This document shows, piece after piece, positions 26,814 through 39,081 of a DNA stretch of 45,510 nucleotides; the first letter of the stretch is position 1, and each line of letters starts with the position of its first letter. Under the pieces are notes generated by a model. It ran no database searches, had not been told where the DNA came from, and saw only the letters and a list, made by a program, of their open reading frames with translations. A program made the position numbers and the translations under genes. The DNA is from Propionispora vibrioides. GTDB lineage: Bacteria; Bacillota; Negativicutes; Propionisporales; Propionisporaceae. The stretch spans positions 1 through 45,510 of the forward strand of contig NZ_FODY01000009.1 in NCBI RefSeq assembly GCF_900110485.1, read 5' to 3'.

Positions 26814-27233
26814 TTATTGCTTCTTTAAAACTACCAGTTTTGGGGGGATGCCAACACGTCCGGCTATATCATAAAAACTGCATTCTGGATGCTCATGAAG
26901 TAGTTTGTCTGGCATAAGTAATTCAACTGCGAATGCATTGGCTTGCCTTTCGATACGATCTATAGAATATAACGTGTAGCGTTTTAAAAAGGGGGTATTA
27001 ACGTTTGGATGTAGTATTGCATGTCCAAGTTCATGAGCGCAGGTAAAGCGACACTCATCTTCGGAAAGTGTGTTATTGATATGGATGAACTTAATTCTAT
27101 AATCGTTAGTGAAATAGCCCATGGTTTCCCCTAAATTTTCATATATGATGTTAACTTTTAATTTATGGGCCAGTATAAAGGGGGAATTTGTTTTATACTT
27201 ATTTATTAGTTTTTCTACAGTATCCTTTATCAT
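26814..27233 (-). CDS. ImmA/IrrE-family metallopeptidase
   Basis: 139 residues with the zinc motif HELGH in TCAHELGHAILHP and a downstream ERQANAFAVELLMPDKLL helix that supplies the third ligand. This is the ImmA family, which cuts Cro/C1-type repressors of integrated elements to induce them. GGGAGG precedes the ATG. It lies 21 bp behind the XRE gene on the same strand, the usual immR-immA order of ICEBs1 and many prophages. Confidence 0.9.
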   Translation of the reverse strand: MIKDTVEKLINKYKTNSPFILAHKLKVNIIYENLGETMGYFTNDYRIKFIHINNTLSEDECRFTCAHELGHAILHPNVNTPFLKRYTLYSIDRIERQANAFAVELLMPDKLLHEHPECSFYDIAGRVGIPPKLVVLKKQ

Positions 27234-27254
27234 GAAAGAAATCCTCCCGTGAGG

Positions 27255-27707
27255 CTATTTCCTGTATTTTTTTGGGGTAAATTTCTGCTTTGCCATTTGT
27301 TTTGCAAGTCTTAAGGTATTTTCCAAAGAAATGCGGAGTAATTCCTTGTCGTCTTCAGACATAGGTTCCTCTCCATCGTAGTAGGCTATCGCACTATTTC
27401 CGGGCATGAGGTCAGTCAGAAGAGATTCGAGCCTTTTTTGGATACTGTGTTCATCTTTAGCTGTAAGGGGAGGGAGAGAGGCGGTTTCTTTCTTTTCTTC
27501 AATTAGGTCTGACTTTTGAATACCAAAATAATTTGCTAACATCTCAATTTTGTCTATACGGGGGTATTTATTTCCGTTTACCCAGTCTGTAAAAGTAGAA
27601 TACTTAAATCCCAAATCATTGCAAACCTGGTTTCGGTCTTTCTTGTATTTTTCCATGTAGAATTTAAGGTTTTTTGACATAATTTCTTTATTTCCTAAGT
27701 CGCTCAT
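27255..27707 (-). CDS. XRE-family repressor (ImmR-like)
   Basis: 150 residues. The HTH (RNQVCNDLGFKYSTFTDWVN, then GNKYPRIDKIEMLANYFGIQ) lies near 21-63, followed by an acidic linker and a C-terminal region where ImmA would cut. A strong AGGAGG site supports the ATG at 27707. It faces a consensus promoter with ACGCTTTAAGCGT operators at 27784-27824, so it should repress the rightward island genes and itself. Confidence 0.88.
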   Translation of the reverse strand: MSDLGNKEIMSKNLKFYMEKYKKDRNQVCNDLGFKYSTFTDWVNGNKYPRIDKIEMLANYFGIQKSDLIEEKKETASLPPLTAKDEHSIQKRLESLLTDLMPGNSAIAYYDGEEPMSEDDKELLRISLENTLRLAKQMAKQKFTPKKYRK

Positions 27708-27783
27708 TACGGTTCCTCCTGAGACTTGGTAATCTCATTGTATGCTTAAGTCGTAAATTTTTCAATAATTATTTTAAGATATT

Positions 27784-27824
27784 ACGCTTTAAAGGTTGAC
27801 TTTACGCTTTAAGCGTTTTATAAT
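27784..27824 (+). promoter_or_regulatory. Consensus rightward promoter with repressor operators
   Basis: TTGACT (27796-27801) and TATAAT (27819-27824) are separated by exactly 17 bp. The near-palindrome ACGCTTTAAGCGT at 27804-27816 fills the spacer and a half-matching ACGCTTTAAAGG lies just upstream at 27784. A repressor bound there would block RNA polymerase. The site is about 80-120 bp from the start of the ImmR-like gene. Confidence 0.75.
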
Positions 27825-27984
27825 TGGCCTAAGAATTAGAGTTGACTTAGATAAATAGCATTCTAAGTGGTACAACATATATAGCCTAGAAAGGAATCGG
27901 CTATTTAAAATACAGCAGAGCGAATGAATAGTGCATTCGACGATATTCTGATTAGAGAAACAGATGGTAATTTTTTATATAAAA

Positions 27985-27997
27985 ACGCTTTAAGCAT
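27985..27997. promoter_or_regulatory. Third operator-like site
   Basis: ACGCTTTAAGCAT repeats the operator word with one change, about 180 bp downstream of the promoter and before the first rightward gene. It could support DNA looping by the ImmR-like repressor. Confidence 0.5.
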
Positions 27998-28085
27998 TTA
28001 CACTTATTGGGAGAGTTTCTATTTGTCATAGACAGTTTTTTTACGTGTACAAATCTAGGATTAAAAAAATAAAGGAGTTGGTTCT

Positions 28086-28280
28086 ATGGAAGCCATTGCT
28101 TTCGTTGCCGGAATTGTGGTGCTAATAATTGTTGCTCAGATTACAGAAGATGTAAGTCATCGACAATTGCAACAGCAGTTTTGGCGTAACAACTATAACC
28201 ATACTAAGCGCAACAGTAGTGAATCCCAACGGATGTTTGCGGTTGAAATGATCAATTGCTCGAAGAACCGAAAGAATTAA
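28086..28280 (+). CDS. Small membrane protein of the prophage-like island
   Basis: 64 residues: an N-terminal membrane segment (AIAFVAGIVVLIIVAQI) then a basic, polar tail. AAAGGAG lies 9 bp before the ATG. It is the first gene under the repressible promoter. No family recognised. Confidence 0.55.
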   Translation: MEAIAFVAGIVVLIIVAQITEDVSHRQLQQQFWRNNYNHTKRNSSESQRMFAVEMINCSKNRKN

Positions 28281-28355
28281 CAGCTATATTTACCCAGGCA
28301 CCAGGCAACAACATTGCCATCTGATCGGCCGGGATTAGAATAGGGAGGGGTTTAC

Positions 28356-28841
28356 ATGGCAAAAATTATTGACATTAAAGAGCAGATTAAGAGAGAAAAC
28401 AAAGTAGCATCGCACTGGCTTATTCATTATAGAGAGCGAAAAAGGGAGCATGATGAGTTTCGCCAGGAGATTTCAGCAGGAAATCGGCAGCACGATGAAA
28501 ATGTTGGAGGAAGCCGTTCGTCTCTTCCCGGTAAACCAGTTGAAAATATGGTTTGTAAACTGGATGAACACGATACGAATAATACTGCCAAATGGCTACA
28601 GACAATAGAAGATGTAAAATCCATTATTGGACCTAAAAAATGCCAGCTACTCGAACTACGACAGAAATGTCAATTTTATATGTCGCCAGATGGCGGCCGT
28701 CCTGGATGGATCGCGCCGGTACAGCAACAGTTTGGTGAAGTTGCAGGGTGGTGCCCGGCAGAGCAAACACTTAAAAATATGTGGTCGGATCTTATCACTA
28801 TAACAGTTAGAGTGGCGAGAGTTCGTGGTTGTGAATTTTAA
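28356..28841 (+). CDS. Hypothetical island protein, possible late regulator
   Basis: 161 residues, charged N-terminal half and a C-terminal half (WLQTIEDVKSIIGPKKCQLL, later WIAPVQQQFGEVAGWCPAE) that could form a helix-turn-helix. In size and position, between early promoter and lysis genes, it resembles ArpU/DUF1492-type phage late activators, but I cannot show homology. Its last codons merge with the first of the three palindrome-hairpin repeats. AGGGAGGGG precedes the ATG. Confidence 0.5.
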   Translation: MAKIIDIKEQIKRENKVASHWLIHYRERKREHDEFRQEISAGNRQHDENVGGSRSSLPGKPVENMVCKLDEHDTNNTAKWLQTIEDVKSIIGPKKCQLLELRQKCQFYMSPDGGRPGWIAPVQQQFGEVAGWCPAEQTLKNMWSDLITITVRVARVRGCEF

Positions 28842-28959
28842 GTTTCGTACTAGTACAAAACTTGCTGCTTTACATGGTAAGATAATAGTGTGAAATCGTT
28901 GTAAATGAATTTTAAAGCAATATGATACATATGCCGTCCAGGAGGGCGGTTTTTTATTT
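28842..28959 (+). repeat. Palindrome-hairpin repeat unit, copy 1
   Basis: The unit opens with GTTTCGTACTAGTACAAAAC, an almost perfect palindrome around GTACTAGTAC. It continues through an AT-rich stretch containing CATGGTAAGATAATAG and ends in CCGTCC-agga-GGGCGG followed by TTTTTATTT, a rho-independent terminator. The order operator, possible -10, about 60 nt, terminator looks like a small RNA gene or a controlled leader. Confidence 0.65.
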
Positions 28960-28983
28960 CCCTTCTAGGTGGAATGTAAATTA

Positions 28984-29034
28984 ATGCTGATAAATGCAGC
29001 ACGGTTTATTTTTCAATACAGTGGTATTGTGTAA
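28984..29034 (+). pseudogene. Decayed copy of the Cys-rich miniprotein gene
   Basis: The frame MLINAARFIFQYSGIV ends at TAA. It lines up with the start of the intact Cys-rich miniprotein at 29498 (MLIKCDAKCACQYDGYC), sharing MLI and QY-G, with the Cys codons lost. It sits at the same offset after its repeat unit, so it is probably an old duplicate. Confidence 0.45.
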
Positions 29035-29106
29035 CAAAGAAGCAAAGAAGACCAGAGTATTGAGGAACTGCAGTCAGTGAGGGAAGAATTACAATTGTGA
29101 ATTATT

Positions 29107-29223
29107 GTTTCGTACTGCTACAAAACCAATTATTTTTCATGGTAAGATGATAGTATGAAATTGTTGTAAATGAGTTTCTGATGTGATACACGTGATGCCG
29201 TTCGAGTAGAGTGGTTTTTTATC
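29107..29223 (+). repeat. Palindrome-hairpin repeat unit, copy 2
   Basis: Starts GTTTCGTACTGCTACAAAAC, where the palindrome is broken at two central bases. It keeps CATGGTAAGATGATAGTATG and ends with a weaker stem before TTTTTTATC. It lies 265 bp after copy 1. The sequence after it (TACTGTGTGACAAAGAATCA) still matches that after copy 1. Confidence 0.6.
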
Positions 29224-29346
29224 TTCATTCTTAGATTCATTCATATCGATTCAATGCAGAAATTACTGTGTGACAAAGAATCAAAGAGGATTAGAGATTG
29301 AGATAACAAGAGTTAGAGGGTAAAGAATCACAGTTGCGAATTTTTT

Positions 29347-29471
29347 GTTTCGTACTAGTACAAAACCCTCTTTTTTTCATGGTAACATAGTAGTATGAAA
29401 TCTTTGCAAATGAATTAAAAAACCAAATATATTACATGGCTACGACCGTCCAATAGGGCGGTTTTCTTTAT
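29347..29471 (+). repeat. Palindrome-hairpin repeat unit, copy 3
   Basis: Restores the intact palindrome GTTTCGTACTAGTACAAAAC, then CATGGTAACATAGTAGTATG, and ends with ACCGTCC-aata-GGGCGGT followed by TTTTCTTTATT. It lies 240 bp after copy 2 and directly precedes the intact Cys-rich miniprotein gene. Confidence 0.65.
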
Positions 29472-29497
29472 TCTCATTTTTAGGCGGTGGTTAATGT

Positions 29498-29653
29498 ATG
29501 TTGATTAAATGTGACGCAAAATGCGCTTGTCAATATGACGGCTATTGCATTCGCAAATGGCAAGGCTTGCAATGTCGTGATATAACTCATGGAAAATATC
29601 AGGATATTTTTATTGAGGTGATCCATATTCCGTGCGAACCTTGCCGCTATTAA
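29498..29653 (+). CDS. Cys-rich miniprotein (51 residues)
   Basis: Starts MLIKCDAKCACQYDGYCIRK and has seven Cys (5, 9, 11, 17, 26, 46, 49) in 51 residues, ending IPCEPCRY. The spacing suggests a small metal-binding or disulfide-knotted fold. An AGGCGGTGG site precedes the ATG. The stop codon lies inside a small hairpin (29643-29667). The family is unknown. Remnants of the same gene follow repeat copy 1 and possibly copy 2. Confidence 0.6.
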   Translation: MLIKCDAKCACQYDGYCIRKWQGLQCRDITHGKYQDIFIEVIHIPCEPCRY

Positions 29654-29667
29654 GCGGCTATTTTTTA
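29643..29667 (+). terminator. Short terminator overlapping the miniprotein stop codon
   Basis: GCCGCT-atta-AGCGGC followed by TATTTTTTA. It includes the TAA stop of the miniprotein and probably separates it from the lysis genes. Confidence 0.65.
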
Positions 29668-29692
29668 TACCATAACAGGGAGAGGTGATGGG

Positions 29693-29950
29693 GTGGAAAA
29701 CTTTCTAGGGACGATCGTTCAAATCATTACAGTGCTTGGATTTATGGCCGTACTGGTTAAATTGTTAATTGTTAATCCGCTACAGACGGCCATAACCGCA
29801 CTGAATGATGCCGTAAAAGAATTGAAAACAGTACTCACCCGGATTGAGGAGGAGCAAAAAAACATAGGAAATAGGCTGGCTCGTACAGAGGAATCCTTAA
29901 AGTCCGTGCACAAGCGCGTAGATAAATTGGAGGGAAAGGTTCATGAGTGA
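29693..29950 (+). CDS. Small membrane protein with coiled coil, lysis-cassette member
   Basis: 85 residues, GTG start. One N-terminal membrane segment (IVQIITVLGFMAVLVKLLIV) is followed by a long heptad-rich helix (LKTVLTRIEEEQKNIGNRLA and onward). The organisation resembles holin-accessory proteins of phages. It overlaps the next gene by 8 bp, so the two are translated together. Confidence 0.55.
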   Translation: MENFLGTIVQIITVLGFMAVLVKLLIVNPLQTAITALNDAVKELKTVLTRIEEEQKNIGNRLARTEESLKSVHKRVDKLEGKVHE

Positions 29951-30338
29951 GTGGCAAATGGTTCTGTTGGCCGCCGGCATATTATTGGCGGCTAATCTGT
30001 TAGTTATGGGGCTATTTGTGTTGTTTGCCAAACTGCCGGACGGTCGGCTTAGCCAGGTAATCAGGGGGATTATCTATTGGCTTGATGAGTTTGCGGATGA
30101 TATGACAAACAAGGAAAAAAAGCAAGATGCAATCCGGCAGTTTACTGAAGTTTTAGGCTGGCGCCGCATTTTGGTACCGGCCGCGCTGATCGGGTGGGTG
30201 ATTGATGCGGAGGTAGCCGCTATACGAAAAATGCAGGCGGCGACGAATACGCCGGACCTGCATGTAGAGGGGGAAGATATAAGTGTACAAGGTAACATTG
30301 GAGGAACTAAAACAACTGGCTTTAAAGGCCAAGAATGA
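29943..30338 (+). CDS. Putative phage holin
   Basis: 131 residues. An N-terminal hydrophobic segment (MVLLAAGILLAANLLVMGLF) is followed by an amphipathic and a second hydrophobic stretch (RRILVPAALIGWVIDAEVAA) and a polar C-terminus. Holins are short membrane proteins that time lysis. The position right before an amidase gene fits that role. The family (perhaps LL-H-type holins) is a guess from pattern only. Confidence 0.55.
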   Translation: MSEWQMVLLAAGILLAANLLVMGLFVLFAKLPDGRLSQVIRGIIYWLDEFADDMTNKEKKQDAIRQFTEVLGWRRILVPAALIGWVIDAEVAAIRKMQAATNTPDLHVEGEDISVQGNIGGTKTTGFKGQE

Positions 30339-30825
30339 TTTATGGGCGCTGGCCCGGGCGAATGATCGAGATGTGAAGGTTTACCTCCATTGGTCTGCCG
30401 GCCATTATGGGCAGTTTTTCAGCGACTACCATATCAATATTGACAAGGATGGCAGCGTATATATGAGCACTAATGACCTGGCAACTGTACTGGCCCATAC
30501 ATGGCGCCGTAATTCTGGGGCGATTGGCGTATCCCTTGCGGCTTGCTACGATGCAACGACTCAAAACTGGGGGCCGGAACCGCCGACAGTCGCACAAATT
30601 GAGGCCATGGCCCAGGTGGTTTGTGTCTTGGCGAATGCATTGGATCTCACAATTGATTATGACCGGGTTATGACTCACGCGGAAGCAGCCAATGAGGATG
30701 GTTACGGCCCACAGCAAACATGGGAACGCTGGGACCTGTGGATTCTACCAGGTGTCAGCCTCGGCGAGGGTGGCAATATTATCCGCGGCAAAGCGAATTG
30801 GTATCGACAAAACGGTGTGACCTGA
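30283..30825 (+). CDS. N-acetylmuramoyl-L-alanine amidase (endolysin)
   Basis: 180 residues of the Amidase_2 fold. The zinc ligands are likely H36 in VYLHWSAGHYG, the His in VMTHAEAANEDGYG and the Asp in ERWDLWILPG, with YHINIDKDGSVYMS after the first strand. It cleaves the bond between muramic acid and the peptide in murein. GTG start after GGGGGAAG. It overlaps the holin-like gene by 56 bp. There is no signal peptide, so it would need the holin for release. Confidence 0.85.
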   Translation: MYKVTLEELKQLALKAKNDLWALARANDRDVKVYLHWSAGHYGQFFSDYHINIDKDGSVYMSTNDLATVLAHTWRRNSGAIGVSLAACYDATTQNWGPEPPTVAQIEAMAQVVCVLANALDLTIDYDRVMTHAEAANEDGYGPQQTWERWDLWILPGVSLGEGGNIIRGKANWYRQNGVT

Positions 30826-30865
30826 CCGGCTGCACTTTATTAATTATTCAAAGGAGTGTATTAAT

Positions 30866-31039
30866 ATGGTCAATTTTTTGAAAAAGGTTGCTAATTGGTT
30901 CTTAGGGAAGGCAGAGGAGGTTGAAAAATTGGATGATGCTATTAAAGTAGCAGTTAATCAGCAGACCAAGCGAGCTTTCTATATCGGTGCTACTGTTGGG
31001 GTTACGGTCACGACGGTCATTGTTAGGATAATTGGATAA
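30866..31039 (+). CDS. Small membrane protein between endolysin and overlapping ORFs
   Basis: 57 residues from an ATG after AAAGGAG. A basic amphipathic N-terminus (MVNFLKKVANWFLGKAEEVE) is followed by a C-terminal hydrophobic segment (YIGATVGVTVTTVIVRIIG). It may be an antiholin or another membrane member of the lysis cassette. It is followed within 6 bp by the overlapping spanin-like ORFs. Confidence 0.5.
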   Translation: MVNFLKKVANWFLGKAEEVEKLDDAIKVAVNQQTKRAFYIGATVGVTVTTVIVRIIG

Positions 31040-31044
31040 AGGAG

Positions 31045-31428
31045 ATGATTAAAATTGATAAGAAAATTATTATCATTGCTGCTCTGTTTCTGGTTATTGC
31101 TACCGGCTGCTGGTATTTGTTCGGCAGCGGAGGCAACATATCAAATAACGGAGTCGGAGCTGACCAGGTTAGATCAGATCTTTCAGCAGTTGGACAGCAA
31201 CAATCAGCAGCTATTGACGGACTTGGCCGCATCGAAACAGGACTTAGCGACGGCGCGGCAAAAGTTGGAACAATATCAGCAGGACTTAACGACACTACAA
31301 AGTCAATTGCTGCAACTGAGAGCCGAATCGATGCAAGTCAAAATGCAGCTAGAAGCAGCTCAGAACTCATTGCAGAAGGCCAACGAATCCTTGGACAAGT
31401 ACGAGAAAGAAGTAAAAACGGAATATAG
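31045..31428 (+). CDS. Spanin-like ORF A (outer reading frame of an overlapping pair)
   Basis: 127 residues. The N-terminus has a membrane or export segment (IIIIAALFLVIATGCWYLFG) whose ATGC could act as a loose lipobox. The rest is a Ser/Ala/Gln-rich periplasmic-type helix region, such as AAIDGLGRIETGLSDGAAKV. The ATG directly abuts AAAGGAG, which is poor spacing. It overlaps ORF B in the +1 frame for almost its whole length. Together they have the layout of Rz/Rz1 spanins, which join inner and outer membrane in the last step of lysis. Confidence 0.5.
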   Translation: MIKIDKKIIIIAALFLVIATGCWYLFGSGGNISNNGVGADQVRSDLSAVGQQQSAAIDGLGRIETGLSDGAAKVGTISAGLNDTTKSIAATESRIDASQNAARSSSELIAEGQRILGQVRERSKNGI

Positions 31429-31492
31429 AAGTTTGAAATTGCAAAGAGATTTAGGTTTCTTAGCCGCAGTTTATTTTATGGTAAAAAAATAA
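31055..31492 (+). CDS. Spanin-like ORF B (inner reading frame of an overlapping pair)
   Basis: 145 residues starting at a TTG 10 bp after AAAGGAG, the better-spaced start of the two. It has a signal segment (LLSLLLCFWLLLPAAGICSA), a long Gln/Leu-rich coiled coil (about 30-120) and a short hydrophobic C-terminus (LGFLAAVYFMVKK). It could be the coiled-coil partner of ORF A. If only one of the two frames is real, this one has the stronger start and the more regular heptads. Confidence 0.6.
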   Translation: MIRKLLSLLLCFWLLLPAAGICSAAEATYQITESELTRLDQIFQQLDSNNQQLLTDLAASKQDLATARQKLEQYQQDLTTLQSQLLQLRAESMQVKMQLEAAQNSLQKANESLDKYEKEVKTEYRSLKLQRDLGFLAAVYFMVKK

Positions 31493-38270: not shown

Positions 38271-38337
38271 CTAATTGACGAATGAAAAACAGAAAATTCA
38301 TGTATTGTGATTTGCTTAAGTGCAGGGAGGACAAACT

Positions 38338-39081
38338 ATGCATTTGGACATTCATTTTCGTATGATTGCCGGGAGAAGTCTGGTTTTGCCGGTCAACTAT
38401 AACTACATTGTGCAAAGCGCATTGTACCATTCCCTTGATACAGACTTGGCTGAATTTTTACATGAAAAGGGTTATCAGAACGGATCGCGTACCTTTAAGC
38501 TGTTTAGTTTTTCCTTGCTGCAAGGTCCTTATCGGATTGACAAGATAAAAAAGAATATTGAATTTGGACAAGAACTTAAACTGACGATTTCTTCACCGCT
38601 GGAGGATTTTTGCCAGTCCCTAGTTACCATACTGATGACCAGAGGGAGCATGCGATTGGGAGCACAGAACGTAATGATTGAAAAGGTGCAGGCCCGGCAG
38701 CTAGCGGTTGGTGGGGAAAAGGCGGTCATCCGTACTTTATCACCGGCGGTGCTTTACAGTACCATGCTGCGGCCTGATGAACGTAAATATACAGTCTATT
38801 TTCAGCCCGGCGAGTCGGACTATGGGCGATTATTTAACGAGAATCTTCACAAAAAATATGGTGCCCTTTGGGGTGAGGATTCACCAGCGGGCACTGTGGC
38901 AGTTAAGCCATTAGGTTTGCAAAAAATGAGGTTAGTTGTCTATAAGGAAACGATTATCAAAGCTTATTCCGGTACCTTGCTGTTGAATGGTCCGCAACCA
39001 CTACTACAATTGGCTGTGGATGCTGGAATCGGTAGTAAAAACAGCCAGGGCTTTGGCTGTGTTGAACTAGTAGGAAAATGA
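38338..39081 (+). CDS. cas6: CRISPR endoribonuclease Cas6
   Basis: 247 residues from the ATG at 38338 after AGGGAGG. Two ferredoxin-like halves are expected. The C-terminal glycine-rich loop GIGSKNSQGFGCVEL, with the sequence VDAGIG before it, is the Cas6 hallmark. The N-terminus IHFRMIAGRSLVLPVNYNY fits Cas6 of type I-B/III systems. Cas6 cuts the array transcript within each repeat to make crRNAs. No other cas gene (cas3, cas5, cas7, cas8, cas1, cas2) is in the window. Confidence 0.88.
   Translation: MHLDIHFRMIAGRSLVLPVNYNYIVQSALYHSLDTDLAEFLHEKGYQNGSRTFKLFSFSLLQGPYRIDKIKKNIEFGQELKLTISSPLEDFCQSLVTILMTRGSMRLGAQNVMIEKVQARQLAVGGEKAVIRTLSPAVLYSTMLRPDERKYTVYFQPGESDYGRLFNENLHKKYGALWGEDSPAGTVAVKPLGLQKMRLVVYKETIIKAYSGTLLLNGPQPLLQLAVDAGIGSKNSQGFGCVELVGK

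Follow-up and report, generated by a model that had tools for sequence, protein, structure and literature searches.

Organization of the locus

The window, i.e., the whole stretch of 45,510 nucleotides of Propionispora vibrioides DNA that was analysed, carries on its forward strand two almost fully overlapping open reading frames: ORF A (31045–31428), which starts at an ATG and encodes an i-spanin-like protein of 127 aa, and ORF B (31055–31492), which starts at a TTG and encodes 145 aa. ORF B lies in the +1 frame of ORF A, and the two have 374 bp (31055–31428) in common, coordinates at which the sequence-only reading of this DNA had placed them and which were confirmed here. Approximately 97% of A is contained in the overlap, and B runs on past the stop codon of A for no more than about 20 codons, which encode a hydrophobic tail. 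A Shine-Dalgarno-like AGGAG (31040–31044, forward strand) abuts the ATG of A and lies approximately 10 bases 5' of the TTG of B, and an ATTG at 31054–31057 on the same strand offers possible coincident starts, with ATT for A and TTG for B.

The pair stands at the end of a row of forward-strand genes for lysis. These encode an 85-aa XhlA/hemolysin-like protein (29693–29950) with a membrane segment and a coiled coil, for which family matches were weak only; a holin-like protein (29943–30338) with two membrane segments (phrog_6918, E = 3.7e-4); and an endolysin (30283–30825), predicted to be an N-acetylmuramoyl-L-alanine amidase (Amidase_2, E = 9e-10; PHROG endolysin, E = 8e-37). The location of the ORFs downstream of a holin-like gene and an amidase gene, noted earlier, is confirmed, with the addition that a 57-aa gene (30866–31039, forward strand), whose product has one C-terminal membrane segment, is situated between the endolysin gene and A/B, as it is in some relatives.

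Ahead of these genes (28828–29428, forward strand), a 96-nt repeat that contains the palindromic TTTCGTACTAGTACAAAAC occurs three times, each time with a terminator-like hairpin behind it, and the copies form a possible control region of the cassette. They belong to three tandem units of approximately 250 bp (28828–28966, 29093–29231, and 29333–29478), each combining the 96-nt repeat, whose palindrome precedes a TAAGATAATAG-like box, with a GC-rich hairpin and subsequent T's; each of the three could encode a small RNA or serve as a promoter-terminator unit in front of the lysis genes. A Cro/C1-type repressor (27255–27707; HTH_26, E = 1.2e-7) and an ImmA/IrrE-like M78 metallopeptidase (26814–27233; E = 6.6e-24) are encoded on the reverse strand. 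The segment at 27782–27999, which separates the repressor gene from the genes that run rightward, contains repeats of ACGCTTTAAGCGT, which are probably operators. A gene for a Cas6 endoribonuclease is present elsewhere in the window (38320–39081; Cas6 C-terminal domain, E = 2e-32).

Two genes in two reading frames

The two frames were compared across a sample of approximately 56 intact A/B pairs from Negativicutes genomes, IMG/VR viral contigs, and one human faecal phage scaffold. Matches of A and B were co-located in searches across 300 class genomes, and in all 56 pairs B is accompanied by a match to the A family with an identical frame offset. No stop interrupts the A frame anywhere in the overlap in 56/56 loci, and the third frame contains 7–23 stops within the overlap in the loci checked. 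When the B protein was held fixed and synonymous codons were sampled from neighbouring genes, the probability of an open A frame per locus had a median of 0.001 and a maximum of 0.088, figures whose product is not a formal probability, since the 56 loci are related. In synonymous-shuffle comparisons with the B protein fixed, the likeness of A to the A of the window lay above expectation in 31/31 cases (z 1.8–7.5), and with the A protein fixed, so did the likeness of B to the B of the window (z 2.3–9.1); mean column identity is 41% for B and 32% for A. As the similarity of both proteins exceeds the synonymous nulls, both are under selection, each frame given the other, and by these measures the overlap is far beyond chance. 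The sequence-only reading had named conservation of one frame without the other as the outcome that would count against it; with both frames open in 56/56 loci and both sets of z values above the null, this test does not refute its proposal of two real genes in two frames, which the open frames and the shuffle tests support.

The rods of both proteins display an exact 3.5-residue periodicity, and core positions m of B overlie core positions m+3 of A, i.e., the A codon that shares two bases with the B codon. A Leu TTR codon in B yields an A codon of the form nTT, which encodes I, L, V, or F; thus, the heptad register is common to both frames because leucine TTR in one is read as a hydrophobic residue in the other. 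TTR accounts for 64% of Leu codons in the B rod vs 45% in neighbouring genes, and the heptad moment of A is above a B-only null in 56/56 loci (mean z 2.9), and these two features together indicate that selection maintains two in-register coiled coils within one DNA stretch. That only B is a gene and A an accidental open frame is a far-fetched reading, for although coiled-coil composition is able to favour open alternative frames and the TTR codons of B do supply hydrophobic residues in A, an A frame open at all 56 loci against the per-locus median, together with A similarity and A heptads above the null, already refutes it at the level of sequence.

The starts of A and B nearly coincide, and 16 loci show the offset seen in ATGAATG. 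Within the group to which the window belongs, the ATG of A sits directly on the Shine-Dalgarno sequence, and the ATTG with its ATT for A and TTG for B follows 10 bases further; the TTG of B is preceded by an adenine, giving ATTG, in 21/25 relatives with a TTG start. Four relatives (L064, L074, L077, and L115) have no ATG, GTG, or TTG for A near the start. One ribosome site seems to be common to the starts of A and B.

Architecture of the predicted proteins

The model of A contains a membrane helix at residues 6–27, followed by a single periplasmic-type helix of 88 residues (38–125). Across the family, the non-polar run of the membrane helix has a median of 20 residues, and the C-terminus is conserved as LIxEGQxILxxVRxRG. 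The N-terminal membrane helix and periplasmic coiled coil by which i-spanins are recognised are therefore predicted for A. The model of B contains helices at residues 2–20 and 33–144, the latter being one helix of 112 residues in which the heptads are unbroken. The signal peptide of B ends in motifs such as CSA, ASA, or GTVSA, and a conserved YxITExELTRLE lies between it and the long helix. At the C-terminus, a non-polar tail of 11–16 residues (median 12) is present in 56/56 B proteins, which is short for a membrane helix; it is followed by a terminal basic residue (K/R) in most members, and the B of the window ends in KK. The models thus agree with the earlier description of a membrane or export segment followed by a long helical region in both ORFs, and with that of B as a signal segment plus a coiled coil.

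The loose lipobox that had been read in A did not hold up, since it is not conserved: in a census of the 56 pairs, lipobox-like strings were found in only 4/56 A and 3/56 B proteins, with no conserved site. A lipobox serving as an o-spanin signal in either protein is ruled out by these counts. Neither A nor B has the character of an o-spanin, i.e., an outer-membrane lipoprotein with a lipobox, and B does not carry the N-terminal lipobox of a unimolecular spanin (3/56).

Distribution and gene neighbourhood

Neither A nor B belongs to a family of Pfam, PHROGs, or NCBIfam, and the matches obtained there are coiled-coil background. Matches of A to the "Rz-like spanin" entries of PHROGs were rejected as sub-threshold and unspecific, as unrelated membrane plus coiled-coil genes, such as that of the 85-aa XhlA-like protein, give them too; matches of B in the three collections were likewise coiled-coil background only. 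A search of PDB sequences with A returned generic coiled coils only, e.g., chemoreceptors and tropomyosin, and A had no plasmid match.

Named relatives of the pair occur in Propionispora sp. 2/2-37, from the genus of the window, in Sporomusaceae, and in other Negativicutes. The scan of contigs with B employed an alignment of an 11-protein subset, as the full set of 29 B proteins proved too divergent when aligned. In a 398-genome sample of the phylum, full-length members were confined to Negativicutes, with none in roughly 385 other genomes of the phylum. The best matches beyond the class were discarded as coiled-coil background: they are heptad proteins of low complexity or the N-terminal coiled coils of long proteins resembling wall hydrolases, and a conserved A frame is missing. 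The confinement of the family to the class Negativicutes in the phylum-wide search bears out the diderm Firmicute host type that had been proposed. Additionally, 11 loci lie in IMG/VR viral contigs, and the unannotated human faecal phage scaffold MT836582 carries both frames (E = 2e-28 and 1.4e-21), with an amidase of the type found in the window immediately upstream. The phage setting suggested earlier is thus sustained by the viral contigs and the faecal scaffold, but not by the copy in the window, which lies outside a recognisable prophage.

Two further copies within the genus were observed. The genome of the window contains, close to the end of a contig (G000:C5:207372-207551; L002, L147), a second, broken copy of the pair that retains approximately the last 50 codons of B and 27 codons of A, and host-like sequence follows it. 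In Propionispora sp. 2/2-37 (L062, 5550–6990), the pair is intact in both frames, and upstream of it only short broken frames, with no intact holin or endolysin, were found.

The gene just upstream of the pair encodes a peptidoglycan hydrolase in approximately 43 of 53 loci, a total that assumes one hydrolase family per protein; the families are Amidase_3 (19), Amidase_2 (12), GH25 (6), VgrG3-like (3), M15 (2), and glucosaminidase (1). Holin families precede this upstream gene in approximately 20/44 loci, and several loci contain genes of 1300–1800 aa further upstream, the size of tail or tape-measure genes. The pair therefore occupies the place of spanin genes, at the end of the lysis cassette beside holin and endolysin, as had been claimed from the window. 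Since the upstream hydrolases come from at least five families and are joined by holins, the pair is tied to lysis in general: it keeps company with lysis, not with one enzyme.

The host envelope

The host genome encodes two Omp85 proteins (BamA/Omp85), and with these proteins and the occurrence of the family only in Negativicutes, the hosts of the pair have the outer membrane on which a spanin acts. LolA was absent from 60/60 class genomes in a search that detected LolA in the E. coli control, in line with the reported lack of LolA and LolB in Negativicutes (PMC5007114). In Veillonella, none of the outer-membrane proteins was found to carry a lipid modification (PMC5491611), and neither outer-membrane lipoproteins nor Lol homologues were identified in another study (PMC10665443). 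Given that no Lol system is known, textbook spanins should not work in Negativicutes, and the lack of a conserved lipobox in A and B fits hosts that have no known Lol pathway or other lipoprotein route to the outer membrane.

Proposed function and alternative explanations

On the basis of selection, architecture, gene context, and host range, the most likely function of the pair is the breaking of the outer membrane. We infer, with a probability of roughly two in three, that A and B are the two components of a spanin-like device which completes lysis in Negativicutes as its last step, a reading that includes their pairing with each other and their contact with the outer membrane. The N-terminal helix of A would hold the protein in the inner membrane, from which it would point outward, while B would be exported through Sec, lose its signal peptide, pair with A through the coiled coil, and touch the outer membrane, most simply via its short hydrophobic C-terminal tail. 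The intact wall would keep the rods apart; once the endolysin has removed it, the rods could join or fuse both membranes and the cell would open, with no lipoprotein involved. The spanin pair of the sequence-only reading thus keeps its overlap, its cassette position, its topology, and its host type, but not its lipobox, and its function is one that we infer. As the defining outer-membrane lipoprotein is absent, A/B is not a canonical Rz/Rz1 pair and is to be classed outside the Rz/Rz1 family, under the looser term spanin-like.

A more specific version of this proposal is tentative and falls somewhat short of even odds: A/B would be a spanin system that dispenses with lipoproteins and is restricted to phages whose Firmicute hosts have an outer membrane, and in which two full-length, in-register coiled-coil rods are encoded in one DNA stretch, with near-coincident starts on one ribosome site (ATTG or ATGAATG), and a short C-terminal helix makes the contact with the outer membrane instead of a lipid. 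If true, such a mode of breaching would suit hosts whose outer membrane is free of lipoproteins.

The copy in the window may have a history of its own. It forms part of an island of approximately 4.7 kb (26814–31492), in which the repressor, the ImmA-like peptidase, the repeats, and a full, intact set of lysis genes are flanked by metabolic genes. No phage structural or integrase gene was recognised in the island (26.8–31.5 kb), and the metabolic flanks rule out the window as a whole prophage; one terminase family sought in the genome of the window was absent, an absence that is not proof of there being no prophage. The cassette may represent either a remnant or a lysis module that has been domesticated. 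Its gene content and flanks would suit a repressor-controlled lysis module domesticated without a phage, e.g., one releasing cell contents like a type 10 secretion cassette; this is possible, though it has the odds against it, as a decayed prophage with surviving ends would look identical, the second copy in the same genome is degraded at a contig end, and in a genome of the same genus (G037) the pair is intact among host genes with no intact endolysin found adjoining. Domestication would concern the window copy only, leaves the pair its role in lysis, and is compatible with the spanin-like explanation.

A second alternative concerns the tail of B, which could lie in the outer membrane, with parallel rods, or could equally be a stop-transfer anchor in the inner membrane, with antiparallel rods, an arrangement that would favour a regulatory role or contact via the other ends. 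In the latter case, A through its N-terminus and B through its C-terminal tail would both reside in the inner membrane, and the antiparallel rod would serve in timing, as an antiholin, or in control of the endolysin, its target being the holin or endolysin and not the outer membrane. The basic residue after the tail in most members conforms to the positive-inside rule, and the missing lipoprotein signal and the lysis-cassette position are in keeping with such a regulator. However, the tail, at a median of 12 residues, is short beside the 20 of the A membrane helix; the unrelated endolysin families that accompany the pair, at least five in number, speak against a partner-specific regulator; and the sampled monoderm genomes contain no full-length relatives though their phages also need holin and endolysin control. 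We therefore regard an inner-membrane regulator as unlikely.

Still less probable is that B alone acts as a lipid-free, u-spanin-like protein, with its C-terminal tail in one membrane and its N-terminus reaching the other, and that A is an accessory regulator from the same message. B has the polarity of T1 gp11, with an export signal at the N-terminus and a hydrophobic segment at the C-terminus (PMC6139136), and is somewhat better conserved than A; however, the lipobox is confined to three B proteins, and the strong selection on A, including its heptads, suggests a structural partner.

Comparison with known systems

In the open-access literature, nothing was found on spanins or outer-membrane breaking by Negativicutes phages, whose hosts include Veillonella, Selenomonas, Megasphaera, and Sporomusa. 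Found across the class, the spanin-like pair is a concrete, testable candidate and makes the breaching of the outer membrane by a lipid-free spanin directly testable. It also represents an unusually extreme overlapping gene, in which two selected coiled coils share their register via the genetic code.

A/B resembles lambda Rz/Rz1 in its +1-frame overlap, its place at the cassette end after the endolysin, its outer-membrane host, and the possession by one partner, here A, of an N-terminal membrane helix and a periplasmic coiled coil. However, the outer-membrane lipoprotein is absent, and no sequence relationship to Rz/Rz1 has been shown. The earlier statement that the ORFs overlap just as in lambda is correct for the +1 frame but otherwise loose, as their starts nearly coincide and hardly any of A lies outside the overlap, in contrast to most embedded o-spanins, whose start falls at approximately 0.4–0.5 of the i-spanin length (PMC6139136). 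Furthermore, Rz1 is a short proline-rich lipoprotein, whereas B is a long coiled coil with a signal peptide and a hydrophobic C-terminus. Periplasmic cysteines, which serve intermolecular disulfides and are a frequent though not invariable feature of two-component spanins, are also few; 507/528 known two-component spanins contain one or more cysteines (PMC6139136), whereas 20/52 A/B pairs have one within the periplasmic rods, and the rods of the window pair contain none.

B shares with the unimolecular spanin T1 gp11 the order of its export signal and hydrophobic segment, but it has no conserved lipobox, is helical throughout, and is paired with a selected A. In principle, a precedent for disrupting the outer membrane without a lipoprotein exists in disruptins, which are small cationic peptides, and in other lipoprotein-free breakers; A and B differ in both being long membrane proteins with a coiled coil. 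Some phages have no lipoprotein frame at all (PMC6139136). The long MlaD of Veillonella, a host lipid transporter with a C-terminal outer-membrane beta-barrel, has a gene context unrelated to that of A/B and, to the extent examined, an unrelated sequence, but it offers a likeness within the same class, being a Negativicutes protein that is thought to span both membranes without a lipoprotein (PMC10665443).
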